A stretch of DNA of 64,000 bases from Oligoflexales bacterium (lineage in GTDB: Bacteria; Bdellovibrionota_B; Oligoflexia; Oligoflexales; RGVZ01): NCBI GenBank assembly GCA_947494335.1, contig CANLUT010000005.1:186001-250000 (forward strand), in the 5' to 3' direction. The position numbers were made by a program, and so were the translations under genes. Under the pieces are notes generated by a model. It had not been told where the DNA came from and searched no databases. It saw nothing but the letters and a program-made list of their open reading frames with translations. Numbering within the stretch: the stretch's first letter is position 1; each line of letters opens with the position of its first letter. This document shows, piece by piece, positions 7,653 through 35,882 of the stretch.

Positions 7653-7667
7653 CGTAATCCTCTGTTT

Positions 7668-7693
7668 AAACAGATTTTGCTTGCTGTTTTTTT
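7668..7693 (+). terminator. probable terminator of the GldAFG-like operon
   Basis: AAACAG and CTGTTT form a 6-bp stem with a 10-nt loop, followed by a run of T. It begins 15 nt after the operon's last stop codon. The left arm lies within a perfect palindrome CTGTTTAAACAG (7662-7673). Confidence 0.45.
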
Positions 7694-7808
7694 CTAATCG
7701 AATAATCCATCGCGATTTTAACTTACGCATTGGGCTGTCCGGAAGTTGTGCCTTTAAAAATGGCTATGGTACGATTATTGGTAAGAGCAACCGTGTGGGA
7801 GGCATCCT

Positions 7809-8651
7809 ATGGGTTTGAGAATATCAACGAACGTTTCATCATTGACTGGTCAAAGGCATTTGCGTGACACACGTCAATTGCTTGATCGTTCTATCGAGCG
7901 TCTGTCCAGCGGTTATCGCATTAATCGAGCTGGAGATGATGCAGCCGGTCTCGCGATCACGGAAAAGCTGCGCGCCAAGACGCGTGGACTGATTCAGGCC
8001 CAGCGCAATGCTTCTGACGGCGTTTCATTGATTCAAGTTGCCGAGGGTGGCTTGAACGAGGTTCAAAATATTTTGGTTCGTCTCCGAGAGCTTGGGGTTC
8101 AATCGGCATCCGATACGATTGGGGCAAGAGAGCGTAGATACCTTGATGAAGAATTTCAGAGCCTAAAACAAGAGGTTGATCGAATCGCAAACTCAACAGA
8201 GTTTAACGGAACTTACCTTCTGGACGGTACGGGTGGATCTCTGGATTTCCAGATTAACACTGGCGGTCAGAACCTCTTGGGAGTTGACCGAATCAGTTTT
8301 GATGCTTTCAAGCTTGACGTGAATTCAGATAAGCTTGGCATCGAGGATGTTGGTGTAGCGGACAAGAACGGCGCGCAGCGCAGTTTAGCATTTATTGATG
8401 ATGCAATTGAGACGGTGTCGTCTGTCCGTGGTGAGCTCGGTGCTATAGAAAATCGTCTCGAGTCGACCATCCGTAATATCTCTATTAGTGTGGAGAATCT
8501 CTCCGCAGCTCGTAGTCGTATTAAGGATGTCGACGTCGCTGACGAGACTGCCGAATTGGCCAAGCATAACATTCTCATGCAATCCGGAATTTCCGTGTTG
8601 TCTCAGGCAAACAGTATTCCGCAAATGGCGCTACAGTTACTCAAGGGATGA
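7809..8651 (+). CDS. fliC: flagellin
   Basis: The filament subunit, 280 residues. The conserved N-terminal D0/D1 region is clear (LRISTNVSSLTGQRHL, then ERLSSGYRINRAGDDAAGLA). So is the C-terminal D1/D0 region (RSRIKDVDVADETAELAK to the end at MALQLLKG). The middle is only about 60 residues, so the variable D2/D3 outer domains are essentially absent. GGGAGG lies 7 nt before the ATG. It stands alone between the Gld-like operon and a convergent acetyltransferase and ends in a strong terminator, as expected for a highly expressed gene. I did not find a convincing sigma-28 or sigma-54 promoter upstream. Confidence 0.97.
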   Translation: MGLRISTNVSSLTGQRHLRDTRQLLDRSIERLSSGYRINRAGDDAAGLAITEKLRAKTRGLIQAQRNASDGVSLIQVAEGGLNEVQNILVRLRELGVQSASDTIGARERRYLDEEFQSLKQEVDRIANSTEFNGTYLLDGTGGSLDFQINTGGQNLLGVDRISFDAFKLDVNSDKLGIEDVGVADKNGAQRSLAFIDDAIETVSSVRGELGAIENRLESTIRNISISVENLSAARSRIKDVDVADETAELAKHNILMQSGISVLSQANSIPQMALQLLKG

Positions 8652-8670
8652 TGGCACTTTCCTAAATTGA

Positions 8671-8697
8671 AAAACCCGCTGATTAGCGGGTTTTTTT
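8671..8697. terminator. bidirectional terminator after flagellin
   Basis: A perfect stem AAAACCCGCT / AGCGGGTTTT with a GATT loop and a seven-T run. The T-run reaches the end of the acetyltransferase gene on the other strand, so the hairpin may serve both genes. Confidence 0.92.
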
Positions 8698-9634
8698 ATA
8701 TGGAATCCAGTCCCCAAATAAAACTTCTTGCTAAAGCCTTTATCGCTTGTTCACCTTTAGGACCAATTGGTGCAGCGAGTGCCATGGCATGTTCCGAATG
8801 CTGTGATGAGCGTTGTTTCAATGGCTCCAGCCAGTGGTGGTGAAGCTGACCAGGGGCCAGAAGGGTCAGTGACTCAGTTAAATAACCGGACAGAATGGTC
8901 TGAATGTCGGCAATGAGCTCATCTGGAGATAGGGCGCCCCATTCATGGATAACAGCTTGTAAATCCGCTCCTTTGCCAATAATCATCCAAGAGACGATTT
9001 TCGCTCCTCTACGACGTACGAATACAAGCGAATTGGGTATCGTTAAAAGTGCCTTGAACTCCCTCGGACTGCGCTCGACTCCCCACTCAAGTCTTGGTCT
9101 TAAGGTCATCATGGAGCTCAGATCAGTATCGGTCAGACTACTGGGATCAACCCTGCGCAGCCCGGTATCATAAGGTCGTTCCGACCTGGAAATGGTCAGG
9201 CGCCATTCGCGCCCAATCGACGAAAAGCCGAAATTTTGGTAAAATTCTAATAAATCGCTCCAAAGAACCAGCGCGCAAAGACTCTGAGTGTAGGCAAGAT
9301 TTTCCAGCTGTGCGATCAGAGAGCGCATGTGACCCTGACCTCGAAAGTTTTCGTCGGTGGCCACATTGCCCACGAGACCAATAGGGATCGACTTCTGTTC
9401 TGAAGAGTGCTTGAGAGTGCGTGGCCATAGGCTGGCATGACCAATGAGCTGATTGCCCATGAATGCGCACCAACTGGTCGAGTTCCCCTCTGTAGAAAGC
9501 ACCAGAGGATACTCAGCATCATAGGACCAGTCGAGAGTTCCCTCGCGCAGGGACTTCATCAGAAGAAGGTCCCGTGAGTCCCGCTCGAGGGACGAGGCAG
9601 GGTTGCGAAACGAAATGTTCGATGGCGCGGACAC
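8696..9634 (-). CDS. GNAT family N-acetyltransferase
   Basis: The 312-residue protein has a GNAT domain in its first half. The acetyl-CoA binding segment GLVGNVATDENFRGQGHMRSL (quoted in part: NFRGQGHMRSL) carries the R/QxxGxG/A motif near residue 110, and FYQNFGF near residue 150 is the usual motif-B segment. The second half resembles a further acetyltransferase-like or Eis-type C-terminal region. The start is GTG, placed 6 nt after a perfect AGGAGG. The substrate is unknown. It is divergent from fliD and sits inside a flagellar gene block, so modification of a motility protein is possible but unproven. Confidence 0.85.
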   Translation of the reverse strand: MSAPSNISFRNPASSLERDSRDLLLMKSLREGTLDWSYDAEYPLVLSTEGNSTSWCAFMGNQLIGHASLWPRTLKHSSEQKSIPIGLVGNVATDENFRGQGHMRSLIAQLENLAYTQSLCALVLWSDLLEFYQNFGFSSIGREWRLTISRSERPYDTGLRRVDPSSLTDTDLSSMMTLRPRLEWGVERSPREFKALLTIPNSLVFVRRRGAKIVSWMIIGKGADLQAVIHEWGALSPDELIADIQTILSGYLTESLTLLAPGQLHHHWLEPLKQRSSQHSEHAMALAAPIGPKGEQAIKALARSFIWGLDSI

Positions 9635-11852: not shown

Positions 11853-13175
11853 ATGCCTATTTCACAATCACTGTATACAGCTATTACCGGTTTGTCCGTG
11901 ATGTCCGACGGTATGTCGGTTGTCGCCAACAACATCGCGAACGCCAACGGCAAAGGCTTCAAAAAAGGCCGTGCGGAATTTGAAGACATGGTCTCGTCTG
12001 ACCTGTCGACTGGTTCCGGTGCCGCGCAGCTCGGTCGTGGTGCTCGTATGCGGTCCGTTCGAACACTGCACACTCAGGGTGGTCTTGCGGTAACGGATAA
12101 CGTGACCGACTTGGCGATTCAGGGTAGCGGATTTTTTATTCTGAGCGGTAAGCAAGGTCAAGGCGACGATTCATCTGACCGTAAGTACACCCGCGTTGGA
12201 TCCTTCGTCTTTGATAAAGACGGATATCTTGCTGACCCAGGTGGAGACCGCGTGATGGGATTCCTTTCCACGAAGCAAGGAAACTTGTCGTCTCGTATGC
12301 AAGAAATTCGGATCGAAACAAGCCAGATTCAGCCGAAGAAAACTGACAAGGTCTTCCTTGATTTGAACTTGGATGCCCGTATTAAGCCATCGGAAGTGGA
12401 GTTTGATATCACCAATCCTGAGGCGACGTCCCAATTTAACAATACGATCACCGTATTCGACTCTCACGGTCGCGGCCATCCAATGACGGTATTCTACAAC
12501 CGTGTCCCTACAAGTGAGGGCATTGAGTGGAAGTGGCATGCTTGCGTTGAAGGTAAAGATGTTGCTGATCCGGTCGAAGGACAGGAGTTCATGCTCGGTG
12601 GATCTGGATCAGTCAAATTTGACTCCAAGGGTAACCTTCTTGAAGAAAACTTTGATGGCGGCGCCATCAACTTTGGGGAAGGCGCCGAGTCTAACCAAGT
12701 TATCGAGCTCGACTTCGGTAAGAATATTGGTCTCGAAAAAGGTAACGGCCTCAACGCAACCCGTTCGATTTCCGCAAAAAGTGTGACCAATTTCCACAGC
12801 CAGAACGGTTACGAGACTGGTAACATTAAGAGTATGAACATTGAGCTAGACGGCACGATTCGCGGTATCTATACCAACGGTGTCCAGAGAGTTCTCGGAG
12901 CTTTGGCACTCGCCACCTTTGAAAACCAGGATGGTCTGATGAAGGGCGGTAAAAACAACTTCACGGAGACTCTTGATTCGGGGCCTGCGAAGATTGGATT
13001 GGCACAAAGCGGAACACGCGGTTCGATCTACGCGTCAGCTCTTGAAGAATCCAACGTGGACTTGGCGCAAGAGTTCGTAACAATGATTATGACTCAGCGT
13101 GGATTCCAGGCAAACAGCCGCTCGATTACGACCACTGACTCCATGATTGAAGAGGTCGTGAACTTGAAACGCTAA
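11853..13175 (+). CDS. flgE: flagellar hook protein FlgE
   Basis: A 440-residue hook subunit. It starts with the rod/hook/HAP signature (LYTAITGLSVMSDGMSVVAN then NIANANGKGFKKGRAEF). It ends with the conserved ESNVDLAQEFVTMIMTQRGF and TTTDSMIEEVVNL helix. The centre has FDSHGRGHPMTVFYNR, typical of the FlgE D1/D2 junction. GAGGAGG lies upstream of the ATG. It is monocistronic between two terminators, away from the other hook genes that usually accompany it. Confidence 0.96.
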   Translation: MPISQSLYTAITGLSVMSDGMSVVANNIANANGKGFKKGRAEFEDMVSSDLSTGSGAAQLGRGARMRSVRTLHTQGGLAVTDNVTDLAIQGSGFFILSGKQGQGDDSSDRKYTRVGSFVFDKDGYLADPGGDRVMGFLSTKQGNLSSRMQEIRIETSQIQPKKTDKVFLDLNLDARIKPSEVEFDITNPEATSQFNNTITVFDSHGRGHPMTVFYNRVPTSEGIEWKWHACVEGKDVADPVEGQEFMLGGSGSVKFDSKGNLLEENFDGGAINFGEGAESNQVIELDFGKNIGLEKGNGLNATRSISAKSVTNFHSQNGYETGNIKSMNIELDGTIRGIYTNGVQRVLGALALATFENQDGLMKGGKNNFTETLDSGPAKIGLAQSGTRGSIYASALEESNVDLAQEFVTMIMTQRGFQANSRSITTTDSMIEEVVNLKR

Positions 13176-15598: not shown

Positions 15599-16423
15599 TC
15601 AAGAGTGCGAGAGTGACGAATCAATTTTGGACATCGGAAAAAACTGCAAAGCCATTCCGTAAACCACATCTTTACCGTTACAATATTCCTCAAGCAAGCT
15701 TTGAGAAAAGCTTGCGATCTTTTGTTGGATTTCTCCGAAGCGATCCAAATCAATCGGGATTACAATTGAATCCAAATATCGAGAGGTCATAGGAACTGTA
15801 TCGATAGCTTTACGACCAAGTGTCGCCATTTCCCTATGGTATGACCTAACCCAATCTGATGGGATCCCATTATCTACATTTACTTTGAATGGATTGGCGA
15901 TCCAGCGTCCATCCTCAATCGTGACCAAGCCCAGTCTCTCAAGGCGTCGCAAAACCTCGTACAGCTCAATACTGTTCATGCTGATTAGTTTCATGATTGA
16001 TTCACACGACCCATCATAAAATCCGAGCATCATACACGTATAAACGGCCGAATATTTGGGGTTCGCCACAATTTGAAACTGATCATCCGTCACGTCTTTC
16101 TGATTAGACGTCTTCGTTCGCGCCAGTAGGCGCTTTGAGGCCGCATTTTTTTTACGAACATCGTTGGAAGTGCGAATTAGGACCATGTCCCTGAAATCAG
16201 CCGCTTTGATTGGAGTTAGGCGCAGTTTCTTTGCTATGTTCTGAGCTTTTTCGAGCGACAGATCGCCCTTGCCGGAGAAAATTTCACTTAGTCTAGAATG
16301 CGACATCTCAACATCGCGAGCAAATGCTCTTAGTGAGTAGCCAGAATTCTTCTTTCGACGACTGTTAAAGGCGTCCAAAAGTACTTCTCTGTAGTCGAGC
16401 TGAGAGGAAGACAAATCAGCCAT
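15599..16423 (-). CDS. TIGR02147 family protein (XRE-type HTH regulator)
   Basis: The 274-residue protein begins with the signature LDYREVLLDAFNSRRKKN, then SLRAFARDVEMSHSRLSEIF, a Cro/C1-type helix-turn-helix near residues 28-60. The longer C-terminal part includes a YEVLRRLERLGLV winged-helix-like segment near residue 150. This matches the TIGR02147 family, expanded in Fibrobacter and Bdellovibrio relatives. I chose ATG 16423: it overlaps the stop codon of the Kelch gene by one base (TAATG), a sign of translational coupling. It may regulate, or respond to, the coupled Kelch protein. Its targets are unknown. Confidence 0.85.
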   Translation of the reverse strand: MADLSSSQLDYREVLLDAFNSRRKKNSGYSLRAFARDVEMSHSRLSEIFSGKGDLSLEKAQNIAKKLRLTPIKAADFRDMVLIRTSNDVRKKNAASKRLLARTKTSNQKDVTDDQFQIVANPKYSAVYTCMMLGFYDGSCESIMKLISMNSIELYEVLRRLERLGLVTIEDGRWIANPFKVNVDNGIPSDWVRSYHREMATLGRKAIDTVPMTSRYLDSIVIPIDLDRFGEIQQKIASFSQSLLEEYCNGKDVVYGMALQFFPMSKIDSSLSHS

Positions 16424-18315
16424 TACCAACCTGTAAAAAATTCTGATCCGTAATTGGTAAAGCCTCTATCAAAAACTTGTCCGCCCCAAATCAACATGGA
16501 GCTACCTGTCCAGACGGCAGAAGACTCAATTGCTTTCAGAGGAATCATCTCGTCCGTATTGAATTCTTTCCAGACACCGGGGGACGTTGAACCAAGAGCG
16601 CCAGGGACATAACCCAGGACTGAGGATGCTAGCTCATACGTTCTCGAAGCTCCGTAAATCTTTCCTCCAAAAATCAGCATTTTGTCTCCAGCCCAAACAG
16701 CGCGATGCTTGAATCGGCCCTCTGCCATGGCTGCCATTTTTTGAAAACGCAGGGTCTTAAGATCTAAAATCAAACCCTCAGAGATCACGTTTGAATCTGA
16801 GTCAAAGCCCCCAAAAATATAAACTCGATTTTGACTTGGCACATGAAGGAATGAGCCATTGTGACGTGGAACATAATGCTGTCCGGCGGTGTTTATCTTT
16901 GACCATTTCATAGTCTCTGGGTCAAAGAATGCGCCATCATCGAGGATCTTTGAGCAGGCGTCGGCGATCTCCTGGACGCACCCGCCAAGTATTAGCATTT
17001 TGTTCGAGGACAGCTCGTTACCGGTATCTCCAGTCCAAACGGCGAAATGGTGTGCCCGTGCTTTTGGTGCCTCGGGGCTATCTGCGGGAATTTTCTGCCA
17101 AGTTTTGCTCACAAGGTCGTATATTCCGCCGTCCGCAGTGGGGGGTGTCAATGACTCCGGATTATCGTCATTAGGATGCCCGCCCCACACGATCATCTGG
17201 CTTCCTGTCCAAACTAAGGTGTGGTGAACCCTTGGTGAGGGGCTAGCAGACGACGCTGGAATCGGGGTCCATTGGTCTTCCTTCATGTTGTAGACGCCGC
17301 CGTCAGCCAGTCGGGTTTTACACCCGTCTCCGTCACGACAACCTCCCCACACAACAAATAGATTGCTGAGATTTAAGGAGGCACTGTCTCCAGTCCAGAC
17401 AGACTGAGATTCTGCGCGGGATGAGGGTGCTGCGTGCGTTGATATTGGCTTCCATGAGTTTTCTGCTTGATTGTAAATAGCGCCATCATTGAAATACTGG
17501 TTGCCACCACACGCGTAAATGGTGGCCTCACCTTCGCGGCACCCACCCCATATAATCATTCTATTCCGAGTCGAAGTTTCCCCAGAAGGCCCAGTCCATG
17601 CGGTAGCGTGAAAGCCGCGCGGTTCAAATGTGTATTCTTTTCCGTCTATCGTAAAATAAGGTGTTTCCAGATCTCTCCAATGAGGTTTTCCATTGTTGCC
17701 GACCAGCTCGAAAATACGTTGGATAGCTAGGGCAAAATCATCACAAAGACGATCTTCTTGTTGGGCCTGTTGCTCTTTGGTTCCCGAGAAAATGGCACCA
17801 ACCTCCTTGCGTAATCCTTCATCTCTTAAAATGTGGTGAACTGATTCGTGGATCAGTAAGCGATTTGCAAATGATTGGCCACCATCATGTAAGCCGACCT
17901 CACACAGGTTCAGCGAGAAAACGATATCATTAAGGCTTGGCGTCGATGGGTCATTAGTCCAAGCACACGTCGTGTATTCTCCTCGAGGAGCCTCTGAAGA
18001 ATCGTTGTATATGTGGCTGCTAGAAACGATGTCCGACGCGAGATTAAGAAGAACGTTATCTTGCATGACAAGCCGTTGAACGATTGGGTTTTGAGCTAAT
18101 TGCTCATCCTGCGCGAACATCTCTCTATTGAGCGCTGCCGTATTGACCCAATTTGCAGCCTCCCGTTGCGCTTGTCCTAACATGATCCTACGCCAATCAC
18201 CTCCGTTACCAACGCGGACGCCGCCGCTGGAATTGGCAGAAGATCCAAGTTCAGCGCTAATAAAAATTAGGAGAAGACAGATTAAGGAAGCCAACGATTT
18301 CCACGATGCGTTCAT
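16423..18315 (-). CDS. exported Kelch-repeat protein with an HExxH motif
   Basis: A 630-residue protein with an N-terminal signal (hydrophobic residues 8-21). Residues 30-210 form a domain holding HESVH (156-160), which has the zinc-metallopeptidase HExxH form. Residues from about 230 to 620 are Kelch-type propeller repeats, each with a WTG...MLIWGG pattern (for example AVWTGSSMLIWGGQ, LVWTGSQMIVWGG). Many cysteines occur in the WGGC variants. It is the first gene of a two-gene unit, coupled to the TIGR02147 regulator by a TAATG overlap. Whether the HExxH domain is an active protease is unknown, as I could not assign a third zinc ligand. Confidence 0.8.
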   Translation of the reverse strand: MNASWKSLASLICLLLIFISAELGSSANSSGGVRVGNGGDWRRIMLGQAQREAANWVNTAALNREMFAQDEQLAQNPIVQRLVMQDNVLLNLASDIVSSSHIYNDSSEAPRGEYTTCAWTNDPSTPSLNDIVFSLNLCEVGLHDGGQSFANRLLIHESVHHILRDEGLRKEVGAIFSGTKEQQAQQEDRLCDDFALAIQRIFELVGNNGKPHWRDLETPYFTIDGKEYTFEPRGFHATAWTGPSGETSTRNRMIIWGGCREGEATIYACGGNQYFNDGAIYNQAENSWKPISTHAAPSSRAESQSVWTGDSASLNLSNLFVVWGGCRDGDGCKTRLADGGVYNMKEDQWTPIPASSASPSPRVHHTLVWTGSQMIVWGGHPNDDNPESLTPPTADGGIYDLVSKTWQKIPADSPEAPKARAHHFAVWTGDTGNELSSNKMLILGGCVQEIADACSKILDDGAFFDPETMKWSKINTAGQHYVPRHNGSFLHVPSQNRVYIFGGFDSDSNVISEGLILDLKTLRFQKMAAMAEGRFKHRAVWAGDKMLIFGGKIYGASRTYELASSVLGYVPGALGSTSPGVWKEFNTDEMIPLKAIESSAVWTGSSMLIWGGQVFDRGFTNYGSEFFTGW

Positions 18316-20184: not shown

Positions 20185-20280
20185 ATGAACGTGTATATGA
20201 CAATCAATCTATCGCTCAACGCGCTGCTACACGCAGTTGGTGACGATCGTGCGCAGAAGGGGCCTCCTGGATTTATGTGA
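20185..20280 (+). CDS. 31-residue peptide with strong ribosome site and own terminator
   Basis: ATG 20185 lies 7 nt after AAGGAGGT, among the best ribosome sites in the window. The frame runs 31 codons to TGA 20278-20280. The peptide has a hydrophobic first half (MTINLSLNALLHAV) and a charged C-terminal half ending KGPPGFM. PPG is a known slow-translation motif that needs EF-P, so the ribosome may pause 3-4 codons before the stop. An intrinsic terminator starts 18 nt after the stop. It could be a leader peptide for attenuation, a small secreted or RiPP-type peptide, or a small protein of unknown role. No family recognised. Confidence 0.5.
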   Translation: MNVYMTINLSLNALLHAVGDDRAQKGPPGFM

Positions 20281-20298
20281 CGACACAGCAAGGTGTCT

Positions 20299-20334
20299 AA
20301 GCCCAGGTCGCCGTGAGGAGACCTGGGCTTTTTT
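20299..20334 (+). terminator. terminator directly after the 31-codon ORF
   Basis: An 11-bp perfect stem AAGCCCAGGTC / GACCTGGGCTT with a 10-nt loop, followed by TTTTGTTTTA. No obvious anti-terminator partner could be found by eye in the preceding ORF. Confidence 0.92.
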
Positions 20335-20412
20335 GTTTTAATGGTCTGTTATTTTTAAAGAATTAATAAGTTTAACTATTTTGATGGCCTGACGAGGCCT
20401 GGAGGAAACGTC

Positions 20413-20589
20413 ATGAACCTTATGGGACTAACAAACAACGCGGCAGGAGATCTGACGCAGGTGAAAGATGGTTATTGCCAAAATAAACAACGCTTTAAAA
20501 ACAAAATTAAAATTTGGAGCTTCAATAATGAATGCCAAGAAAATTTCGAGAGAAAACACCGCAAGCGAGAGTGCTGCAAGTCTATTTAA
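20413..20589 (+). CDS. possible small protein upstream of the ABCC-type transporter
   Basis: ATG 20413 stands 7 nt after GGAGG and opens a 58-codon frame. The product begins MNLMGLTNNAAGD and is lysine/asparagine-rich with four cysteines, three of them near the end (NNECQEN, RECCKSI). It overlaps another frame (20528-20839), so at most one is likely real. The ribosome site favours this start; the composition of the later part looks non-genic. Low confidence. Confidence 0.25.
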   Translation: MNLMGLTNNAAGDLTQVKDGYCQNKQRFKNKIKIWSFNNECQENFERKHRKRECCKSI

Positions 20590-20839
20590 TCCGCCATTCG
20601 TCGGGAATCCCGGACGTCGATTCGGAGATTTTGACGCTGTTACGTCTCGTGCGCCCACCACCAATGTATCAATTTTATTTCGTATATTAATCAGCCCGAT
20701 TCGATGGTTCCACTTCTGTTGGAAGCCTCGAAAAGCGAGGGCGAGCCGTGATTTTTTCTATCACAGCGAGCGGGAAGCCTTTCGGGTTGAGCAAGCCAGG
20801 AAGCTGGCATCTGCCAGGTTTTACGGATCGAAGTTTTAA
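20528..20839 (+). CDS. possible 103-residue protein upstream of the ABCC-type transporter
   Basis: ATG 20528 follows TTGGAGC. The frame encodes 103 residues with a hydrophobic patch (VSILFRILISPIRWFHF) and a basic C-terminal half. It overlaps the frame at 20413-20589 and the upstream extension of the transporter frame. No domain is recognised and the coding signal is weak; it may be only an open stretch. Confidence 0.25.
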   Translation: MNAKKISRENTASESAASLFNPPFVGNPGRRFGDFDAVTSRAPTTNVSILFRILISPIRWFHFCWKPRKARASRDFFYHSEREAFRVEQARKLASARFYGSKF

Positions 20840-20906: not shown

Positions 20907-23900
20907 ATGAAACTTGTGAAAAAAATATTATTTTCGGACGTCACATCGTTGGTTCGGTTGGGACGGACGCGCCCACTTGAAAGTGAGGACATGCCTTCGC
21001 TGCCGGATATCCATAATCGTCTCAAAGTCTCGAAGATATTTGAAACTTTAAAGCCGATTGAGGTGCGTCCAGGAGAAAAGGCATCGCGCGGCGCTGTCTT
21101 TAGATTTCTCGTTGACGTCGTGTGGCGGGTCAAGGGTGCTGTGGCCGGGATGGTCTTACTGTCTCTCGGGCTAGTTGTCTGTGATTTGCTGGGGCCGGTT
21201 TTATTAAACCGCTTACTGAATCTCTTTGTCACTCCGTCGCCCTCATGGGGTTTTATTGAGCGCGCCTCAGGTTTGGCCATGGCATTTGGCCTATGTGGTG
21301 CCATTGGCGGCATTCTTGGTCAGCATTATATTTATCGATTCCTAGCTATCGGCATGGTGGTGAACGCGGGCCTAAACGAGCGGATCTACGAGACATCACT
21401 AAAGCTAAGCAAAAAATCCAGACAAGCCTATCCAACGGGTGATGTCGTCAATTACATGGGTTCAGACACCGACTCGGTTCAGGACTTTGTATGGGCAATC
21501 AATGAGTTATTCATGGCAGTCATATCGATCATCGGTGCCTCGGTGCTGATGGTCTATTTTCTCGGGAACGCCGGTTATCTGGCGGTGCTAGCTCTTGTGC
21601 TGCTCGTGCCTCCAACTAAGTGGATTGCTAAAAAGTTCTGCTTTCACAGTGATGAGGTATCTAGTCAGCGAGATAAGCGCGCGGCCTATATGTCTCAGGT
21701 TCTGTCGTCCATCAGGATTGCCAAGTCATTTGGATGGGAACAGCTTATTGAGTCCAAGATTGGTGACATCCGCGACAAAGAGCTCGGGCATCGGAAAAAA
21801 TTTATTAAAGCATCTGGATTATCGGTGGTGCTTTATGGCTCTATCGGAACCATCGTTGGCGGAGTGGTACTAGGGGCCATGTCGTACCTCGGAGAGCCTT
21901 TGACGGCGGCTAAATTATTTACTGCATTATCTTTAATTGCGGTGATGGAGACCCCTTTTGGACATTTAACACATATTATCTCGATGATTACGGATGCCTT
22001 CGTTAGCGGTGAAAGGATCGGTAAATTTTTAGGTGCCGAAACCAGATCGGCCGGCACTCCTGAAAGCGCGCCTGTGGACGATGCTGTTGGACTAGAGTTT
22101 GACGATGGTGCACTTCAGTTTTCAGATGCTGACAAGCCTGTGCTGTCGGGATTACGGTTTCGCGTCGAACCCGGTACATCGCTTGCCATTGTTGGTCCCG
22201 TCGGTAGCGGAAAGTCTGCAATTCTTGGAGGGATTTTAAGGGAGGTTAGTCTAGCCAGCGGGCGGGTCGCGTTTTTTGGACGTGATGCGCTAGTGCAGGA
22301 TGCGCGGATAGCCTACGTTCCGCAGGAGGCATTTATTCAAAATGCGTCATTGCGACAGAACATTCTATTCGGCGCTCCTGATCTGAATCTTTCCGAAGCA
22401 TTGAAAGCCTCTTGTCTTGATGCTGACGTAAAACTGTTCTCCGCTGGTATAAATACCGAAATTGGAGAACACGGGGTCAATCTGTCTGGTGGTCAGAAAC
22501 AGCGCGTAGCTCTAGCTCGTGCGGTCATTCAGCGTCCATCTGTTGTGTTGCTTGACGACCCCCTCTCGGCCTTGGATGAAAAGACCGAGCAAAAGATCAT
22601 CGATGGGCTGATATTTGGATTATGGGCGCAAAAAACGCGAGTGGTTGTGACTCATCGGCTAAAGTATATTGGTCGATTCGATCAGATTTTGTTTTTAGAG
22701 AACGGGACCGTAGCGGCTATCGGTAGCTTTGAAGAGTTATTGGATAAGTCAGACAGGTTCCGTGAGTTTTATAGCCAGGCGGATATAACTGAAAACCCCA
22801 CTCAAGAAAAATCTTCTGATCATATTGGGACTGACAGTGGCGCAACTTGTCTAGAAACGGTAGAGGCTCCAGAAGAAATATTCGCTGATAAAGATCTGGC
22901 ACGAATTACCGAAAATGAGGACCGGCAGTATGGCTCGGTTTCAAAAGATCACTACGCTCTTTATTTGAGATCCATGTGGTCAAACCTGTCGGGTCGGCAG
23001 TCAAAGATTTTTCCGGTGATGGCTCTATTTGCCTTAGCGATGTTGGCGGCTACAGGGATGCCGATTTTAGTCAATGCTTGGATGGGAGTTTGGGGTGATA
23101 CTCTCGATCAGGCTGCGTCCGTGAACGGATCCCATGGCGTGTCCAGTCTCTCAAGTTTATTTTTTGGTATGGTATCTCCGTCACAGGGAGAAAATATTGG
23201 CATCTACATGGGGCTTGCAGCAGCGAGTGCCTGCGTCGCTTGGGGCCAATACATGCTTTATGGTCTGGGTGGAGTGCGAGCTGGAAAGAATTTTCATGAC
23301 CGCATGCTACAATCAGTGCTTGGTGCCAAAATCAGGTTTTTTGATTCAACGCCAGTTGGGCGAGTGCTTAACCGGTTTAGTAAAGACCTCGATACTATCG
23401 AGCGTCATCTTCCATGGTCCTTTGAACAATCGATTCGGTCGTTGTTTGGAATGATCGGGCAGCTGGTGTTGATATCGACGTTGTTACCATTGACGGTAAT
23501 CGTAACGATTCCTGTATTGGCGTTATATTACACTTTACAGCGCGATTACCGCATGTCCAGCCGTGAGGCTCAGAGACTTTATTCTGTGAGTCGATCGCCG
23601 CGGTACAGTCATTTTAAGGAAACACTGACGGGACTTACCGTGATCCGTGCATTTAAGCGGGAGGACTACTTTCGAAAAGAGTTTTTTAGCCGCATAAGTA
23701 TGAATCAAAGAATGTTTCATGGAATGGTTTTGCTAAACCGATGGTTCTCCCTTAGAGTTGCATTGACAGCAGCCGCCATCAGCATCGCTGTTAGCTTGGC
23801 CTCAGTTTGGTCAGTGGCGCACGGGTATATTATGGCGGGAACAGCAGGTCTTGCTATGATGTATGGGGTGCGGTTTTGGGAGACGTTGAATTGGGCTGTG

Positions 23901-24761
23901 CGTATGTTCAGTCAGCTTGAGTCGCAGATGACCTGTGTGGAGCGAGTGGCAAGATTTTCTAGTATTCCCCAGGAGTCGTCCGTGGAAAGTCATTCCGAGG
24001 ACGTTACCGATAAGAAGCCTGGCGCATCGCCTGGTCCACGGGGTCTTGATGTGATCTTTGATCAGGTCAGCATGCGCTACGCGGATCATCTTCCATTGAT
24101 TTTGCGTGGGTTGTCCTTTTCAATTAGAGCAGGCCAGCGCGTTGGAATCATCGGAAAAACTGGCGCAGGGAAGTCCAGTGTGTTTCACGCACTCTACCGG
24201 TTCAGTGAACTTACAGAAGGTCGAATTCTCATTGGAGGGCGATCACAGACCGCGATGCGTATCAGCGAGTTAAGATCCCTCATCAGCACGGTGCCTCAGG
24301 ATCCAGTGCTTTTTATGGGCGACTTGCGGGGGAATTGTGATCCATTTGATTTATATTCAGATGACGAAATATGGAGCGCCCTGGAGCGGGTTCAGCTGGC
24401 GGACCGCGTACGATCACTAAGCGATGGACTAAAGTCGGTGGTTTCGGAGGGTGGTTGTAACTTCAGTCAGGGCGAACGGCAGCTGATTTGTTTGGCGCGT
24501 GCATTGTTGTCTGAAGCTCCGATAATATTGATGGACGAAGCTACATCAGCGATTGATGTCGAGACTGATGTGCGGATCCAAACGACGATTCGCCGTGAAT
24601 TCCTCGGGCGAACAATTCTCATTATCGCTCATAGATTGGCGACTATTGCCGATTGTGATCAGATCATTGAGATAAAGGACGGAAGGGCAATTGGCCCATC
24701 ATCAATTGACCACAATTTAAAAGTTTCGCAAATCGCTTCAGATGATTGCTTGGTGCTGTAA
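20907..24761 (+). CDS. full-length ABC transporter of MRP/ABCC type
   Basis: A 1284-residue single-chain exporter, TMD1-NBD1-TMD2-NBD2. The N-terminus has the MRP 'L0' pattern (SLVRLGRTRPLESEDMPSL). NBD1: Walker A VGPVGSGKS (~430), VPQEAFIQNASLRQNILFG, signature LSGGQKQR (~525), and Walker B VVLLDDPLSALDE, with Asp in place of the catalytic Glu. NBD2: GKTGAGKSS (~1079), ISTVPQDPVLFMGDLRGNCD, signature FSQGERQLICLARAL, and IILMDEATSAIDVETD with the catalytic Glu. This asymmetry is the ABCC hallmark. Length matches short MRPs such as ABCC4, without TMD0. I chose ATG 20907 behind CGGAG; the frame is open upstream from GTG 20748. Substrate unknown. Confidence 0.9.
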   Translation: MKLVKKILFSDVTSLVRLGRTRPLESEDMPSLPDIHNRLKVSKIFETLKPIEVRPGEKASRGAVFRFLVDVVWRVKGAVAGMVLLSLGLVVCDLLGPVLLNRLLNLFVTPSPSWGFIERASGLAMAFGLCGAIGGILGQHYIYRFLAIGMVVNAGLNERIYETSLKLSKKSRQAYPTGDVVNYMGSDTDSVQDFVWAINELFMAVISIIGASVLMVYFLGNAGYLAVLALVLLVPPTKWIAKKFCFHSDEVSSQRDKRAAYMSQVLSSIRIAKSFGWEQLIESKIGDIRDKELGHRKKFIKASGLSVVLYGSIGTIVGGVVLGAMSYLGEPLTAAKLFTALSLIAVMETPFGHLTHIISMITDAFVSGERIGKFLGAETRSAGTPESAPVDDAVGLEFDDGALQFSDADKPVLSGLRFRVEPGTSLAIVGPVGSGKSAILGGILREVSLASGRVAFFGRDALVQDARIAYVPQEAFIQNASLRQNILFGAPDLNLSEALKASCLDADVKLFSAGINTEIGEHGVNLSGGQKQRVALARAVIQRPSVVLLDDPLSALDEKTEQKIIDGLIFGLWAQKTRVVVTHRLKYIGRFDQILFLENGTVAAIGSFEELLDKSDRFREFYSQADITENPTQEKSSDHIGTDSGATCLETVEAPEEIFADKDLARITENEDRQYGSVSKDHYALYLRSMWSNLSGRQSKIFPVMALFALAMLAATGMPILVNAWMGVWGDTLDQAASVNGSHGVSSLSSLFFGMVSPSQGENIGIYMGLAAASACVAWGQYMLYGLGGVRAGKNFHDRMLQSVLGAKIRFFDSTPVGRVLNRFSKDLDTIERHLPWSFEQSIRSLFGMIGQLVLISTLLPLTVIVTIPVLALYYTLQRDYRMSSREAQRLYSVSRSPRYSHFKETLTGLTVIRAFKREDYFRKEFFSRISMNQRMFHGMVLLNRWFSLRVALTAAAISIAVSLASVWSVAHGYIMAGTAGLAMMYGVRFWETLNWAVRMFSQLESQMTCVERVARFSSIPQESSVESHSEDVTDKKPGASPGPRGLDVIFDQVSMRYADHLPLILRGLSFSIRAGQRVGIIGKTGAGKSSVFHALYRFSELTEGRILIGGRSQTAMRISELRSLISTVPQDPVLFMGDLRGNCDPFDLYSDDEIWSALERVQLADRVRSLSDGLKSVVSEGGCNFSQGERQLICLARALLSEAPIILMDEATSAIDVETDVRIQTTIRREFLGRTILIIAHRLATIADCDQIIEIKDGRAIGPSSIDHNLKVSQIASDDCLVL

Positions 24762-25361: not shown

Positions 25362-28331
25362 TTATTGAACGCGAATCGCAACCTGAAGTGCGTGGGTGGC
25401 GCGAGAACCATCATTTAGCTGAATCATCACGTAGCCACTTTTTCCCCGAAGACTTTCCGGGATGTTGAATGAAAAGGTTATTGGTTCTGCCCTGGTCCCT
25501 GGAGACCAGCTGCCATAGTTCACCCCGGTGGTAGAGTTATTAGCTGGACGGATTCCAGGATCGCTTGATTGGGTGTAGCGTACCGAAAATGGTCCAGGCT
25601 GACGACTGTTCGCAAGGAAGTTGAACTGAACTTTGAAGGACAATACCTGCCCTGCAACTGCATCGAGCGCGCCGCTAGGAACGGGCTGGCCGTTTCGATC
25701 CTTCAGCGAAAGCACAGCATTCCTTTCCAATTTTATGGTTTGTGGGAAAATCTGTGTTGAGCTACTGACGCCGTTGATGCCCTGTGTTGTGCCCAATACA
25801 TTGACGGGAATGTCATCGGAAACCCAAACCCCTGGCTTAACGTTTACATCAAGGTCAACACTTTCTCCCGGGTTAATTTCTGGAGTGATCAAAGGTGACT
25901 TGATAAATGAAACGGTCGCTGGATCAGAGGAGAGGAACAGTTCTTTTGTCGTAATCATGTCTTTTGTATTGTTAGTCAGTTTAATTTTTGCTGGAACTTC
26001 CTCATCAACCCGTGGATTCTTTGATAGTGTTATGGCCTGAATTTCAAGGGGGAAGCGAATTTCAGCTTCAGGTGCAATTCGTTCCAATTCCGAATAGGCG
26101 CCATCAGCCCCTCGTAATTCAATAACACCTTCAAGGACAATTTTAGATAGCGCCTTAGCTTGACTAATCTTTGCCGCTACAACTCCTTCGAGGGTAGTGC
26201 GCGTGTTAGCTGCTAGTGAGGGTAGGTCACGGAGTTCAAATGTTAAAGACTCGCCATTTGTGTTGCCTGTGATGCGAACTCGCGCTTTGCCCAGTGGTGA
26301 TGACTTGAGGCCGTAATTATCAATGACCACACGAAGCTTTGCTCGATCTCCGGAGGCAAATAGACCGTCTCCAGACTCCTCGACGAGTTTGACGTCCCTA
26401 ACAATAAGTAAGTGTCCCGTTGAAAGAGAGTTCGTGACTGCTGCTTGGCCCAGCTGAAATTGGCGTGCTCGAGCTTGGGGCAGACTTGAACCGAATCCAT
26501 CGAGGATGCCTTGATCTTTTGCGCCTTGCTCCTCACCGCGGCTCTTGCTGCCGTCGTAGCTCCGCCCCAGTGCAGCATCGTAGTGACTTTTCACCGATCC
26601 GTTGAATGCAGTGGTATAGGAGTTACGGAAGACAGCGCTGTATTGGTCCACAAACTTTCGCGTGTAGGTGGCGTCATATCGCTCACGACACTTTGGTTCA
26701 AACTCAGGTAATTGAAGGCCTGAGCATGGGTATGCGCGGTAGCGGAAGTCCGCGCCAGGGGTGCTGAACGTCGGATTTCCTGCCATTGGCGGTCCATATG
26801 TAGGCTCCTTTGGGAATTGGAATGCAGGTGACGGTACATTGCCGATAGCGCGCTTGCGGGGGTCGAGGTCAGCACCATTATCACCAGGATTAGGGCTAAT
26901 TTGCGATGTTATATCAACGACGGCGTCATTTTCGGGTGCATTGGCAAGGAGTTGATCCCACGCTTGATTATAACCTAATGGGAAGTCTTCCTTTTGAGCT
27001 TTTTGATCCGCGGAGTCCTGGCCAAGTTTTAGTCCCTCACTGTATGATTGCGCAAGGCGCTGACTTGTCGAAGCTGATTCTCTTCCTGTTTTGTACCCTC
27101 TTGCGAAATCGCGCGAGCTACCTTCAGCGCTGCCTTTTTCCTCACCGGCCGCTTTTGCGTCGCGTTGTCCCATCGAGTCTGCAACGCTTGGAGCTCGCTC
27201 TTGAGCTTCACGACTTGAATGCTGGGTAGCCTCTTGTTCAGCTTGAGCTAAGACTCTTCCTAGGGCTGCATTGTAATTAGCAATAACTTGTTGAAGGTAC
27301 CTATAGGCGACCTGAGCTTCGTCTTCTTCCCTTTGCCATTCGCGTTTTGCGGAATCAAGAATTCCGGTGTGTCGGTCAACTTGATTTTGTGCGGTGCGCA
27401 CGTCGTCTTCAGCTCTAGATAAATTTCTTTCTTCGCTAGAAATTCGCGATTGCGCGTCAATTCTACTTGAACGCAGCTGGCTGTGCTCGGATTGTTTTGA
27501 ACTGATATCGCGATCGGTTTGCGATAGTCTACTGTCATAGTTGCGAATGTCACGTTCTTGCGTGTCAACTTGGCTTTGAGCATAAGATAAACGAGATTCG
27601 ACATCTCTTAGTTCTGCTCGCGTCGTCTCAAGTTGGCGGCGAAGGCGTTCTAGCTCTGGTGAATCTGGTTGCTCGCAACGTCGCTGATCGCATGCCGCAT
27701 GGACGGCAAGGCAGCTTTGTTGCGCAGCCTCTTGTGCAGCTTGCTTATTTTCGTTCGTGGAGCAGTGTCCGCTTCTGTGCTCTTCCCATCCGCGATCCAC
27801 GGAGCAGCATGTCCATGGGCCTTGACCCGGGCCGCCTTGATGATTGGCGATCCTTCGTTCAAGGTCTCGTTCCGTTCTTTGCAGCTCGTCACGTTGGCGT
27901 GCTAAATCCTCTGCTCTTCTGCGCAGAGTTGGTAGTTCACTTGCCGCGTCATTTCGTTGGCGGTTTAATTGGTTTCGGTCGGATTCCAATCGGGAAATTT
28001 GATTTTCCACATCGATGATGCTTCGGTCGATTCTTTGTAGATTGGTCCGCGCATCGTTTAGCGAGCGCTCAGCTCTTGACTCTCGAGACTCTGCATCGTT
28101 TAACTGTGACAAATAGTTTCGATGAACTGAGTCTTCTTGATCAAAGGTTCTCTTTGCTTGGTCGGACTGTGCGCGTTCCTGATTGTACCTGGCTTGAGCA
28201 TTCGGAACATCGATGTCCTGGGAATACGACGTCGTGGTTGTCATGCTGGCAGAGGCAAGCATTCCCAAGGCCACGAATGACCTTAGGATTTTTTTTAGGA
28301 CAAATCTTTTGGGTTGCCAATTTTGATTCAC
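25362..28331 (-). CDS. large exported coiled-coil protein with a cysteine-rich insert
   Basis: A 989-residue protein. I place the start at GTG 28331, 6 nt after a perfect GGAGG, though an in-frame ATG lies further up at 28403. A Sec signal follows (KKILRSFVALGMLASASM, cleavage near SYSQ). Residues ~35-380 are long heptad-rich coiled coils, broken near residue 180-235 by a cysteine-rich insert (WTCCSVDRGW...CDQRRC, seven or more Cys). The C-terminal ~300 residues contain Ig-like/CARDB-type beta domains (VIDNYGLKSSPLGKARVRIT, LTNNTKDMITTKELFLSS). It is probably a cell-surface or periplasmic fibrous protein. It stands alone, flanked by direct repeats R1 and R2. Confidence 0.8.
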   Translation of the reverse strand: MNQNWQPKRFVLKKILRSFVALGMLASASMTTTTSYSQDIDVPNAQARYNQERAQSDQAKRTFDQEDSVHRNYLSQLNDAESRESRAERSLNDARTNLQRIDRSIIDVENQISRLESDRNQLNRQRNDAASELPTLRRRAEDLARQRDELQRTERDLERRIANHQGGPGQGPWTCCSVDRGWEEHRSGHCSTNENKQAAQEAAQQSCLAVHAACDQRRCEQPDSPELERLRRQLETTRAELRDVESRLSYAQSQVDTQERDIRNYDSRLSQTDRDISSKQSEHSQLRSSRIDAQSRISSEERNLSRAEDDVRTAQNQVDRHTGILDSAKREWQREEDEAQVAYRYLQQVIANYNAALGRVLAQAEQEATQHSSREAQERAPSVADSMGQRDAKAAGEEKGSAEGSSRDFARGYKTGRESASTSQRLAQSYSEGLKLGQDSADQKAQKEDFPLGYNQAWDQLLANAPENDAVVDITSQISPNPGDNGADLDPRKRAIGNVPSPAFQFPKEPTYGPPMAGNPTFSTPGADFRYRAYPCSGLQLPEFEPKCRERYDATYTRKFVDQYSAVFRNSYTTAFNGSVKSHYDAALGRSYDGSKSRGEEQGAKDQGILDGFGSSLPQARARQFQLGQAAVTNSLSTGHLLIVRDVKLVEESGDGLFASGDRAKLRVVIDNYGLKSSPLGKARVRITGNTNGESLTFELRDLPSLAANTRTTLEGVVAAKISQAKALSKIVLEGVIELRGADGAYSELERIAPEAEIRFPLEIQAITLSKNPRVDEEVPAKIKLTNNTKDMITTKELFLSSDPATVSFIKSPLITPEINPGESVDLDVNVKPGVWVSDDIPVNVLGTTQGINGVSSSTQIFPQTIKLERNAVLSLKDRNGQPVPSGALDAVAGQVLSFKVQFNFLANSRQPGPFSVRYTQSSDPGIRPANNSTTGVNYGSWSPGTRAEPITFSFNIPESLRGKSGYVMIQLNDGSRATHALQVAIRVQ

Positions 28332-28797
28332 TTTTTGCCTCCTGCCCAGAGGGCCTGTCAAAAACGTTTGAGAGAGCCTGCACGTTGTCAGCGATTGGCG
28401 CATGACTTTTGATTGTCATCTCTATTGCAATACCAATGCCATGCTTTCTGATAGTCAAAATTAGCCGGAAGAAGACTGAATAAGTTCAGAAGGCCGAAAT
28501 TTTCGTCTAAATTGATGCATAATGGCGCGGTGCAGCGACAAAATAATACCGAGGTGGTTTCATTTTTATACCAGCGGATGTCTAACGGGTGTCATGGACT
28601 ATTTAGGATATTTTTAGTAGATAAGGGAAGTCGTCCGTCTCCAATCTGATTCAATCCTTTGCCGCTTTGTTTCATGTAGCGCTTTTCAAAGTCGCTAACA
28701 CTTGGCGCAAGTTGGCTCTCAGATGTGTTTACCTATAAATAAAAATAAAAATATTGATTCTAATAAAGTATAAACATCTGAGAGGGAAGAAATCAGG
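28332..28797. other. intergenic region upstream of the coiled-coil gene
   Basis: This region holds the presumed promoter area of the coiled-coil gene and an inverted repeat at 28716-28784. No reading frame with a ribosome site is seen. Confidence 0.4.
28716..28784. repeat. inverted repeat around an AT-rich core
   Basis: CTCTCAGATGTGTTTA (28716-28731) and TAAACATCTGAGAG (28771-28784) are inverted copies with one extra base in the left arm. The 39-nt core is almost entirely A and T. It lies 13 nt beyond the end of the S24-like fragment. It could be an operator, a terminator or a MITE-like end pair. Confidence 0.6.
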
Positions 28798-33026: not shown

Positions 33027-33602
33027 TTAACCCACTTTTTGTGTGCCAGGTGTCGAGCTGTGGCTTTTGGCGGCTAAGATGATTTTTGAGACGCTTAAAA
33101 TTCCGACTAAATGCTTGTCGCGTTTTGAGACGCCGGACATAAGATCTAGACCGGTTTCGGCAGCTGGTTGAGCTTGTTCATCTATATCTGCGGCGGTGAC
33201 GGAAACGATCCCTGTTACGCCGTCAACGATAATTGCAATTGGGCCAGCATTATCCCCTGAATCACAAACAAGAACTCTGGTGCCGGCTGTCCCCTGCTCG
33301 TGCAGGCCACCTAGCATTTTCTTTAGATTGATAACTGGAATAATCTTCCCACGGAGGTTCATGACGCCCTCCGCGTAGGTTGGGCCGTTCGGAACAAAAG
33401 TTAGCTTTGGCACCATGAGAATCTCAAGAATTTTTTCTGAGTCCAGTAAATAGGCTAAAGCGCCAATTTTTAAATGCAGGAATCGATGCTGATTCGGTTG
33501 ACCAACGACCTGATGCTCATCCAACGAACGCGTGATGGCGAACAGACCTCGATATACATCCCCACCATCCTCGTTTTCTTGGCCCCATACATCTATTCCC
33601 AT
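33027..33602 (-). CDS. cheW: chemotaxis coupling protein CheW
   Basis: A 191-residue CheW. The core matches the family (FLHLKIGALAYLLDSEKILEI, then YAEGVMNLRGKIIPVINLKK and VTGIVSV near residue 130). An extra ~30 residues precede the CheW domain. The protein links CheA to chemoreceptors at the membrane. It starts 27 nt after the cheA stop codon in the same operon and ends ahead of a terminator. Confidence 0.93.
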   Translation of the reverse strand: MGIDVWGQENEDGGDVYRGLFAITRSLDEHQVVGQPNQHRFLHLKIGALAYLLDSEKILEILMVPKLTFVPNGPTYAEGVMNLRGKIIPVINLKKMLGGLHEQGTAGTRVLVCDSGDNAGPIAIIVDGVTGIVSVTAADIDEQAQPAAETGLDLMSGVSKRDKHLVGILSVSKIILAAKSHSSTPGTQKVG

Positions 33603-33629
33603 GTACGTCCTCCGTGATCAGTTAAGCAC

Positions 33630-35882
33630 TCAGGCAGCACTAATCCTGTTTTTCTTGCTTTTATGAAAGTCTTCGAGTTCTGCTGTATCCATGACTAAAA
33701 CAACCTCTCCGTCACCTAGAATGGCACCGCCTGCAATGCAGGGGATGCCCTGCATAAGATCACCTAAGGGCTTGATAACCATTTCTTGTTGGCTGATCAG
33801 AGAGTCCACAACGACTCCATATCGACGCTCTGCGTTGCCGATGATAACTGCGTATTTTCGATCGGTACTGCGTGCTTGTTGTGATGTCGTAGGAGTTCCG
33901 TGAGAAGACTGCTTAGATGTTCCGTACCATGAATCCGTACGTTTATGGTCTAGGCCAAGAATTGATTCCAGGTGGTAGATTGGAATGACCTTGTCCCGTA
34001 GTTTAAGGACTGAGGATTCACCAACAGTCTGAATATCACTTGGTTTGATGCGGATGCTTTCAATCACCGAGTTTAGCGGTATAGCCATCGTCTCTTCGCT
34101 CACCTCAACCATCAGGCTGTGGACAATTGCCAGGGTTAACGGTAGGCGAATGGTTATAGTTGAGCCTTTTCCGACTGTAGAATCGATGTCAACCGTGCCC
34201 TTTAATTTAGAAATCTGCTTACGAACCACATCCATCCCGACCCCTCGGCCGGAGACAGTTGTTACTGCTTCGGCTGTCGAGAATCCTGGTTCGAAGATCA
34301 AATTAAAAATCTCGTGGTCACTCAATAGAGTATCACTCTTAATAAGGCCTTTTTCGATACCTTTGCTGCGAATCCTTTTTGCGTCCATGCCTTTGCCGTC
34401 ATCGGAAATCTGTATGACGATTTGGTTGCCTTCTTGCTTGGCTGATAAAATAACGGTTCCCATCTCGTCTTTTCTCGATGCTGCTCTAGAGTCGGGAGAC
34501 TCGATACCGTGATCGCAGGCATTGCGAATCAGATGCACCAACGGATCGGCGATCTGTTCGACAAGTGTTTTATCGAACTCGGTTTCTTCACCTTGAATGA
34601 CGAGGTTGATGTTTTTTCCCAGTTGCCGTGCGAGGTCGCGAACGATGCGGGGATATTTATTGAATATGGTGCCCACTGGTACCATTCGCACCTTCATGAT
34701 GATTTCCTGGATCTCGTTCATGTGACGGCCAAATTGCTGCAATGTCTCCGTCATGGAGCTCATATACTTTCCATGAGAGTTCTGCAGTCGCATGGATTCG
34801 GCAATGTTCTGAAACTTGGTGCGATCAATCACGAGCTCGCCGACTAGGTTGACCAACGCGTCAAGCTTTTCAAGGTCGACGCGAATCGTTTCTGATGTCT
34901 CTGTTTTTTTCTTCGCTTGCGCAGCCTTGTCGTCGTTGACGTGGCTAGTGGTTTTTCTGACCGTTTCTTCGGCGTGCTCTATGTCATTACCTGGATTTGT
35001 TTTCTTATTCGCTCGCTCTTGTGTGGTTGTGATCTTGGAAGGTTTGCCTGCCGCCGCATCTTCCAGGAGTCTAATAATCGGGGCGGTCTTAATACCAGAT
35101 GGTTCCTGATTGAATACCGCCTCTAGAAGCTTTTTTAAACTGTCGATCGCTCCCAAGATGATATCGATGGTATCTGATGTAGGAGTCAGTTTGTCTTTGC
35201 GAACGTTATCAAACAGGTTTTCGAGTCTGTGGGTGAGTCGTTCTATGGCACGAAATCCAAACATGCCGGACGCTCCTTTAAGTGTATGGGCGGCGCGGAA
35301 TATCTCTTCGATCGTGTCTTTGCTTCCAGGGTTTTGCTCCAAACGCAAAATACATTCGTCAAGAGTTTGCATAATTTCGGCGGAGTTAGAGTGGAAATCT
35401 TTCATCATCTCGGGGTCGGAGGCAAAGTCGTTGGACTCCCACTCCTCAATTTCGGGTACATCTCGCGTATCTGAGGGAGGTTCGTTTGCTGGTGGCTGTA
35501 TCGCAATTTTTGGTTCGCGTACAGGAGTCGGAGCGTCCATTTCGGCGAGGAGCCGCTGTGCGTCGTCGTTTGACATCGCAGGCTCGCTGCTTGATTGTGA
35601 GCTAAGGGCATCCATTTCAGCCATGAGACGCGTAGCTTCTTCATCCGACATGGACTCATTTGCGGTATTAGTTTCGGTGTTCTCTAATTGGGGTTTTCCG
35701 GTCCAGTTGAGGACTAGATTCATCAGGTCCGAGGTTTCGATCAGTGCCTCGCGCAGGCGTGAGCGAGTCTCGTCCTGTAGAGCTCCCGTTAACCGAATTT
35801 CATCCAATGCAGCAATGACGATGGGTAGGCTCTCTCGGCGCAAACTATCAAGCGCTGCGCTGGTCAGAGCATTGTTATCCAT
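33630..35882 (-). CDS. cheA: chemotaxis histidine kinase CheA
   Basis: A 750-residue kinase. The Hpt domain has FRAAHTLKGASGMFG with phospho-acceptor His199. A low-complexity lysine/threonine linker runs to the dimerisation domain (IRVDLEKLDALVNLVGELVIDRTKF, shown in part: DALVNLVGELVIDRTK). The ATPase domain has HLIRNACDHGIE (N box), ISDDGKGMD (G1) and GRGVGMDVV (G2). A CheW-like domain closes the protein. No P2 (CheY-binding) domain is visible between Hpt and dimerisation. Upstream of Hpt, two copies of an MS-x3-A-x-RL-x-AEMDA motif occur at residues 78-92 and 103-117. Second gene of the operon. Confidence 0.95.
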   Translation of the reverse strand: MDNNALTSAALDSLRRESLPIVIAALDEIRLTGALQDETRSRLREALIETSDLMNLVLNWTGKPQLENTETNTANESMSDEEATRLMAEMDALSSQSSSEPAMSNDDAQRLLAEMDAPTPVREPKIAIQPPANEPPSDTRDVPEIEEWESNDFASDPEMMKDFHSNSAEIMQTLDECILRLEQNPGSKDTIEEIFRAAHTLKGASGMFGFRAIERLTHRLENLFDNVRKDKLTPTSDTIDIILGAIDSLKKLLEAVFNQEPSGIKTAPIIRLLEDAAAGKPSKITTTQERANKKTNPGNDIEHAEETVRKTTSHVNDDKAAQAKKKTETSETIRVDLEKLDALVNLVGELVIDRTKFQNIAESMRLQNSHGKYMSSMTETLQQFGRHMNEIQEIIMKVRMVPVGTIFNKYPRIVRDLARQLGKNINLVIQGEETEFDKTLVEQIADPLVHLIRNACDHGIESPDSRAASRKDEMGTVILSAKQEGNQIVIQISDDGKGMDAKRIRSKGIEKGLIKSDTLLSDHEIFNLIFEPGFSTAEAVTTVSGRGVGMDVVRKQISKLKGTVDIDSTVGKGSTITIRLPLTLAIVHSLMVEVSEETMAIPLNSVIESIRIKPSDIQTVGESSVLKLRDKVIPIYHLESILGLDHKRTDSWYGTSKQSSHGTPTTSQQARSTDRKYAVIIGNAERRYGVVVDSLISQQEMVIKPLGDLMQGIPCIAGGAILGDGEVVLVMDTAELEDFHKSKKNRISAA

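Follow-up and report, generated by a model that had tools for sequence, protein, structure and literature searches.

A predicted full-length ABCC/MRP-type exporter in an Oligoflexales bacterium and its fused and unfused bacterial relatives

The exporter gene and its surroundings

The window, a 64,000-nucleotide stretch of DNA from an Oligoflexales bacterium, contains the gene for an ABC exporter, P0001, preceded by three small ORFs and a hairpin (Table 1). The translation is a single 1284-aa chain in the order TMD1-NBD1-TMD2-NBD2, and Pfam found ABC_membrane and ABC_tran twice each. A preliminary description of this DNA, made from the letters alone, had reported one chain of about 1284 residues with two TMDs and two ATPase domains, and the open frame and Pfam bear this out. 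The frame is open further 5', as far as GTG 20748. ATG 20907 is the likely start because CGGAG lies directly 5' of it and because the frame 5' of the ATG is unlike that of the nearest relative. Foreign GC content or codon use was not found in the gene. Its GC content is 0.489 versus 0.480 for the window, and its codon cosine is 0.933 where neighbors score 0.89–0.96, a comparison made with window genes only.

Table 1. Coordinates of the exporter gene, its domains and the upstream features in the window.
Feature	Position	Strand	Basis
Small ORF (31 aa) that has a Shine-Dalgarno; possibly a leader peptide	20185..20280	+	Counterpart in G005
Terminator-like hairpin (strong, intrinsic-type), then T run	20299..20330	+	RNA fold
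58-aa small ORF, weakly conserved in G005	20413..20589	+	Weak, may not be a gene
103-aa small ORF just 5' of exporter	20528..20839	+	Counterpart in G005
Full-length ABCC-type exporter gene (P0001)	20907..24761	+	Open frame; MRP model TIGR00957; PDB matches; trees
L0/lasso-like N-terminal segment, residues 1-45	20907..21041	+	MRP4 alignment; model helices; conserved across bacterial ABCCs
TMD1, residues 61-375	21087..22031	+	Model helices; plant ABCC TMD1 alignments
NBD1, residues 393-629	22083..22793	+	Pfam, motif alignment, model
TMD2, residues 680-1018	22944..23960	+	Pfam, motif alignment, model
NBD2, residues 1049-1284	24051..24758	+	Pfam, motif alignment; Walker B and H-loop read from translation

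The exporter is adjoined by a gene on the minus strand (25362-28403) for a 1013-aa protein that has no Pfam match and contains a long region resembling a coiled coil. Further away are a HTH/DUF4423 regulator gene and a kelch-repeat protein gene that overlap by a few bases (15599-18315, minus strand). Translations at 11853-13175 and 33027-35882 read as a protein resembling flagellar hook FlgE and as CheW/CheA-like proteins, respectively. A search of the window with Rfam gave no match, and PADLOC gave nothing beyond generic ATPase similarity.

The nearest relative of P0001 (75% identical) is encoded in genome G005, where the 31-aa and 58-aa ORFs have counterparts 5' of the same exporter. The 31-aa ORF ends just before the terminator-like hairpin. 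When 20 genomes were searched for its pattern G-x-D-x-A-x-K-G-x-P-G, G005 alone had it. The 103-aa ORF has a G005 counterpart in the same place (41% identical, E 1e-15); no Pfam family matched it. The RNA fold of 20270-20345 has an energy of −31.5 kcal/mol (z −4.7), and a similar hairpin occupies the same place in G005. A Shine-Dalgarno small ORF followed by a strong hairpin, both kept in G005, could mean that a leader peptide and terminator attenuate expression as in BmrCD, a precedent of such control for an exporter (PMC4191407), in which case the pump might respond to ribosome-targeting antibiotics. We consider this quite unlikely, a lead rather than a result. The hairpin is separated from the start codon 3' of it by ∼580 bases that contain other small ORFs, the longer fold reaches a z of only −1.5 with no competing antiterminator shown, and the module occurs in two genomes only. 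Attenuation would bear on regulation only and does not compete with the assignment of the exporter to the ABCC family.

Family, ATP sites and predicted structure

Human members of the ABCC family include the MRPs, which are drug-resistance pumps, and the cystic-fibrosis channel. The MRP model TIGR00957 (NCBIfam MRP_assoc_pro) matched residues 95-1259 of P0001 with 702 bits, short of its curated cut-off of 1470 bits, versus 466 bits for the CFTR model and 434 bits for the best bacterial half-exporter model. In a PDB sequence search the best 60 of 580 matches were all ABCCs, including MRP1, ABCC2, plant ABCC2, ABCC3, MRP4, YCF1, MRP5, SUR and CFTR; P-glycoprotein was not among these 60. By sequence over the whole chain MRP1 (ABCC1) scored highest, with 627 bits, but P0001 lacks the TMD0 of MRP1 and YCF1. 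MRP4 (ABCC4; human/bovine 8bjf, 8sx7) is likewise full-length without TMD0, has the L0/lasso, a degenerate site 1 and a canonical site 2, and aligns with P0001 from residue 3 to 1260 at 28% identity. P0001 differs from MRP4 in its apparently partial NBD1 deletion, its NBD2 signature (FSQGE versus FSVGQ) and its place in a bacterial clade.

The N-terminal segment, FSDVTSLVRLGRTRPLESEDM, is L0-like. Residues 1-1200 were modeled using AlphaFold2 with 38 relatives (pLDDT 85, pTM 0.79), and helices were predicted at 2-7, 10-21 and 38-45 ahead of TMD1 with pLDDT ∼87–92. These candidate L0/lasso helices, the MRP4 alignment from residue 3 and the conservation of the bacterial N-termini uphold the L0-like N-terminus of the preliminary description, which had proposed structural modeling as a check. 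The best 50 Foldseek matches of the model in the PDB were all ABCCs, and MRP4 8sx7 had a TM-score of 0.83 by both lengths. Together, Pfam, the model and Foldseek give a type I exporter fold with TMD-NBD-TMD-NBD in one chain.

NBD1 carries the motifs GPVGSGKS, LSGGQ, LLDDPLSALD and THR (Walker A 430-437, Q473, LSGGQ 526-530, Walker B D550, Asp551 at the catalytic position, H583). NBD2 carries GKTGAGKS, the degenerate signature FSQGE, ILMDEATSAID and AHR (Walker A 1083-1090, Q1131, signature 1186-1190, Walker B D1210, catalytic Glu1211, H1242). The translation contains every motif quoted in the preliminary description, VPQEAFIQNASLRQNILFG in NBD1 and ISTVPQDPVLFMGDL and FSQGERQLICLARAL in NBD2, and confirms Asp for Glu in NBD1 and the catalytic Glu of NBD2. 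These motifs make site 1 degenerate and leave site 2 canonical, the arrangement seen in the ABCC subfamily.

The same description held that this asymmetry defines eukaryotic ABCCs, which is overstated. The two-gene exporters L113, L117 and L118, from P0001's own genome and relatives, have the same pattern; L117 and L118 are ordinary heterodimeric pairs of its own genome. The pattern has been described for TM287/288 and TmrAB, and P0001 shares it with TM287/288-type exporters and BmrCD (review PMC7756269). Since two-gene heterodimeric exporters carry it too, ATP-site asymmetry alone is no ABCC marker. It was dropped as an ABCC-specific feature after this comparison and, judged by the motifs, is necessary for membership but not specific.

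Bacterial relatives, trees and the origin of the family

Matches with E 1e-100 or better occur in 17/56 genomes of the window's own phylum-level group. In the phylum to which the Bdellovibrionales genome G061 belongs, 53/369 genomes match the MRP model at 1e-110, nearly all with frames of ∼1170–1310 aa; 0/14 control genomes match at 1e-120. The full-length clade is thus spread over Oligoflexia and Bdellovibrionota. A single scan of genome contigs gave close relatives only; its WOR-3 match is an NBD match inside a 361-aa frame. Phage searches gave distant matches, the best in 2–3 pieces with 26–28% identity and in unannotated records. P0001 had no match at E 1e-60 in a plasmid search. An S-type protein, of the second bacterial group described below, found one full-length ABCC in PLSDB, from Aeromonas caviae. 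This divergent ABCC-like protein (L134, 2926-6531) lies on a 4.94 Mb record that is a plasmid in PLSDB and is chromosome-sized.

Unfused two-gene ABCC pairs are common in Oligoflexia. A group of the same class that is probably Silvanigrella-like (f12) has an N-half gene matching L109 in 11/14 genomes (E 1e-124 or better). On the minus strand at L109 the frame 6926-9028 overlaps the frame 5079-6929 by four bases, and 12/12 further unfused loci have the N-half gene, then the C-half gene. These pairs (L109, L111, L112, L139-L150) resemble P0001 in that order and in matching asymmetry, and the N-gene of L109 keeps part of L0, but they encode two proteins.

Reference sequences of MRP1, MRP4, MRP5, SUR1, YCF1, CFTR and P-glycoprotein were checked end to end against PDB chains (∼2.2–2.3 bits per residue; CFTR differs by two residues in length). 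Plant ABCC2 (9u57) and ABCC13 (9vrc) were copied from printed alignments; 9vrb, the sibling entry of 9vrc, carries the description rice MRP5. Because long branches came together in an early tree that had few unfused rows, the tree was rebuilt with eleven more pairs. In the resulting concatenated tree, with a heterodimer outgroup and support as bootstrap/SH-aLRT, the outgroup is followed by unfused groups U1 (7 rows, 100/100) and U2 (6 rows, 100/99), then the fused proteins (19 rows, 100/99). The fused clade splits into a B-type including P0001 (100/100) and the S-type plus eukaryotes (100/99). Eukaryotic ABCCs form one clade (100/99); the S-type as a single clade has only 80/68 and is not firm. 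Half-trees and concatenated trees agree, and in a tree of N- and C-halves together each half places the S-type with eukaryotes and P0001 outside. The letter make-up differs among tree rows.

In the trees P0001 branches with known ABCCs, apart from ABCB and half exporters, and its NBDs do not fall inside ordinary bacterial exporters, an outcome against which the preliminary description had suggested checking. Its option of a little-studied bacterial ABCC lineage fits the fully supported bacterial clade that holds P0001. From these matches and trees, P0001 is assigned as an ABCC/MRP-type full-length exporter of the bacterial B-type clade. A degenerate site 1 (PMC7756269) would also be expected of an ordinary heterodimeric exporter of the TM287/288 or BmrCD kind that had been fused by chance and had converged on MRP-like features. 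This is very improbable, since P0001 and eukaryotic ABCCs form a group that leaves out the heterodimers L113, L118 and L117 (100/100), and its whole-chain MRP match and L0 segment are specific. A TM287/288-type heterodimeric exporter was rejected as an identity for P0001, a single chain that branches apart from these three. L113 and L118, of the general TM287/288/BmrCD kind, stand for it outside the ABCC clade in a tree without TM287/288 and BmrCD themselves.

The S-type ABCCs (L011, L012, L015, L022, L100, L114) and Aeromonas L134 are full-length like P0001. They differ from it in being closer to eukaryotes (L012 scores 1007 bits with the MRP model), and the S-type also in its NBD1 spacing. 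A 13-residue deletion between Walker A and the Q-loop of NBD1 is typical of MRPs. The spacing is 43 in P0001, as counted on the translation, 35 in all S-type proteins measured and in almost every eukaryote sampled (SUR1 carries an insertion), 36–47 in the B-type, and at least ∼48 in those unfused pairs and outgroups that were measured; in NBD2 it is 47–48 in nearly all rows. By this count (43 versus 35) P0001 appears to carry the MRP deletion in part, and the series lends the B/S/eukaryote ordering what appears to be support independent of the trees.

AU tests rejected grouping P0001 with eukaryotes (p=6e-5), the B-type with eukaryotes without the S-type (p=0.006), bacterial fused proteins to which eukaryotes do not belong (p=0.019, and 0.0002 once further unfused pairs were included) and all unfused pairs as one clade (p=0.02), p-values that are weakened because the groups were named after the first trees were seen. 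The P0001 gene is not a recent import from a eukaryote, since the AU test rejects placing it with eukaryotes and neither its GC content nor its codon use is unusual. The preliminary option of a eukaryotic gene is not borne out, given also the bacterial clade and its spread over Oligoflexia and Bdellovibrionota. Relatives through many bacteria had been named there as evidence against its reading; this applies in part, with recent transfer out and the rest of the reading standing.

The trees give a ladder from unfused pairs to fused B-type proteins such as P0001, then to fused S-type proteins with all eukaryotic ABCCs, so that the eukaryotic family appears to sit inside a bacterial two-gene-to-fused series. 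The simplest reading would be one fusion in bacteria, then one transfer to eukaryotes. Eukaryotic ABCCs (MRPs, CFTR, SUR, YCF1) may thus have been acquired already fused from a bacterium, with Oligoflexia and Bdellovibrionota keeping the two-gene, B-type and S-type steps, a proposal to which we give slightly less than an even chance. The sampling behind the direction of gene flow is limited: it covers two related phyla, a single Aeromonas sequence and eight eukaryotic ABCCs, 6 of the 8 being in the best-sampled tree. Xiong et al. (PMC4649718) dated the ABCC fusion to the last eukaryotic ancestor or earlier, with half-size basal prokaryotic relatives; the fused bacterial ABCCs would move it to bacteria.

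Old transfers from eukaryotes, the S-type coming from an early or unsampled line and the B-type from a still earlier one, would account for the sister relation of the S-type and eukaryotes and their identical NBD1 deletion. Members of these phyla are predators of cells or host-associated, which makes contact with eukaryotic DNA plausible. Two or more transfers would however be needed, the family is rooted by unfused relatives from bacteria, and the AU test rejects grouping the P0001 gene with eukaryotes; we regard such transfers as unlikely. If fusion in bacteria is true, the fused and unfused bacterial ABCCs would be real intermediates on the way to MRPs, CFTR and SUR. A literature search, mostly of papers available without subscription, found no paper on full-length bacterial ABCCs, so these proteins are probably, rather than certainly, new to the literature.

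Proposed transport cycle and substrate

Our overall explanation, with a probability of roughly 0.85, is that P0001 is an inner-membrane bacterial ABCC exporter with ATP retention at site 1 and export driven by site 2, fused in bacteria before eukaryotes got the family. Domain order, motifs, the L0 helices of the model and the place in a B-type clade sister to S-type plus eukaryotic ABCCs are observed, and we infer how the pump cycles, which class of substrate it takes and that the fusion came that early. If P0001 works like MRP1 and bacterial heterodimers, site 1 (NBD1 Walker A/B and Asp551 with the non-canonical NBD2 signature) would hold ATP for long periods. ATP binding and hydrolysis at site 2 (NBD2 Walker A/B and Glu1211 with the NBD1 LSGGQ) would power outward transport. 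Bacterial ABCCs would offer simpler models for asking why one of the ATP sites decays and what role the lasso plays.

Most ABCC members transport organic anions or conjugates. LNWAVR in TMD2 of P0001 corresponds to MRP1 N1245/W1246/R1249, and NR to N1196/R1197. All five, which we take to be TM16/17 residues of the MRP1 ligand site, are kept in P0001 and most B-type proteins. An MRP1-like substrate is doubtful because K332, H335 and R433 of the MRP1 N-half pocket are not kept and R593 is Glu. The exported compound might be amphipathic and perhaps anionic, though we hold this with low certainty. In genome G048 the S-type ABCC gene overlaps a glycosyltransferase-like gene by four bases (L115, 10440-18074, minus strand) and comes after genes that read as methyltransferase-like and ketoacyl-synthase-like, a hint that this S-type protein may export a glycosylated product.
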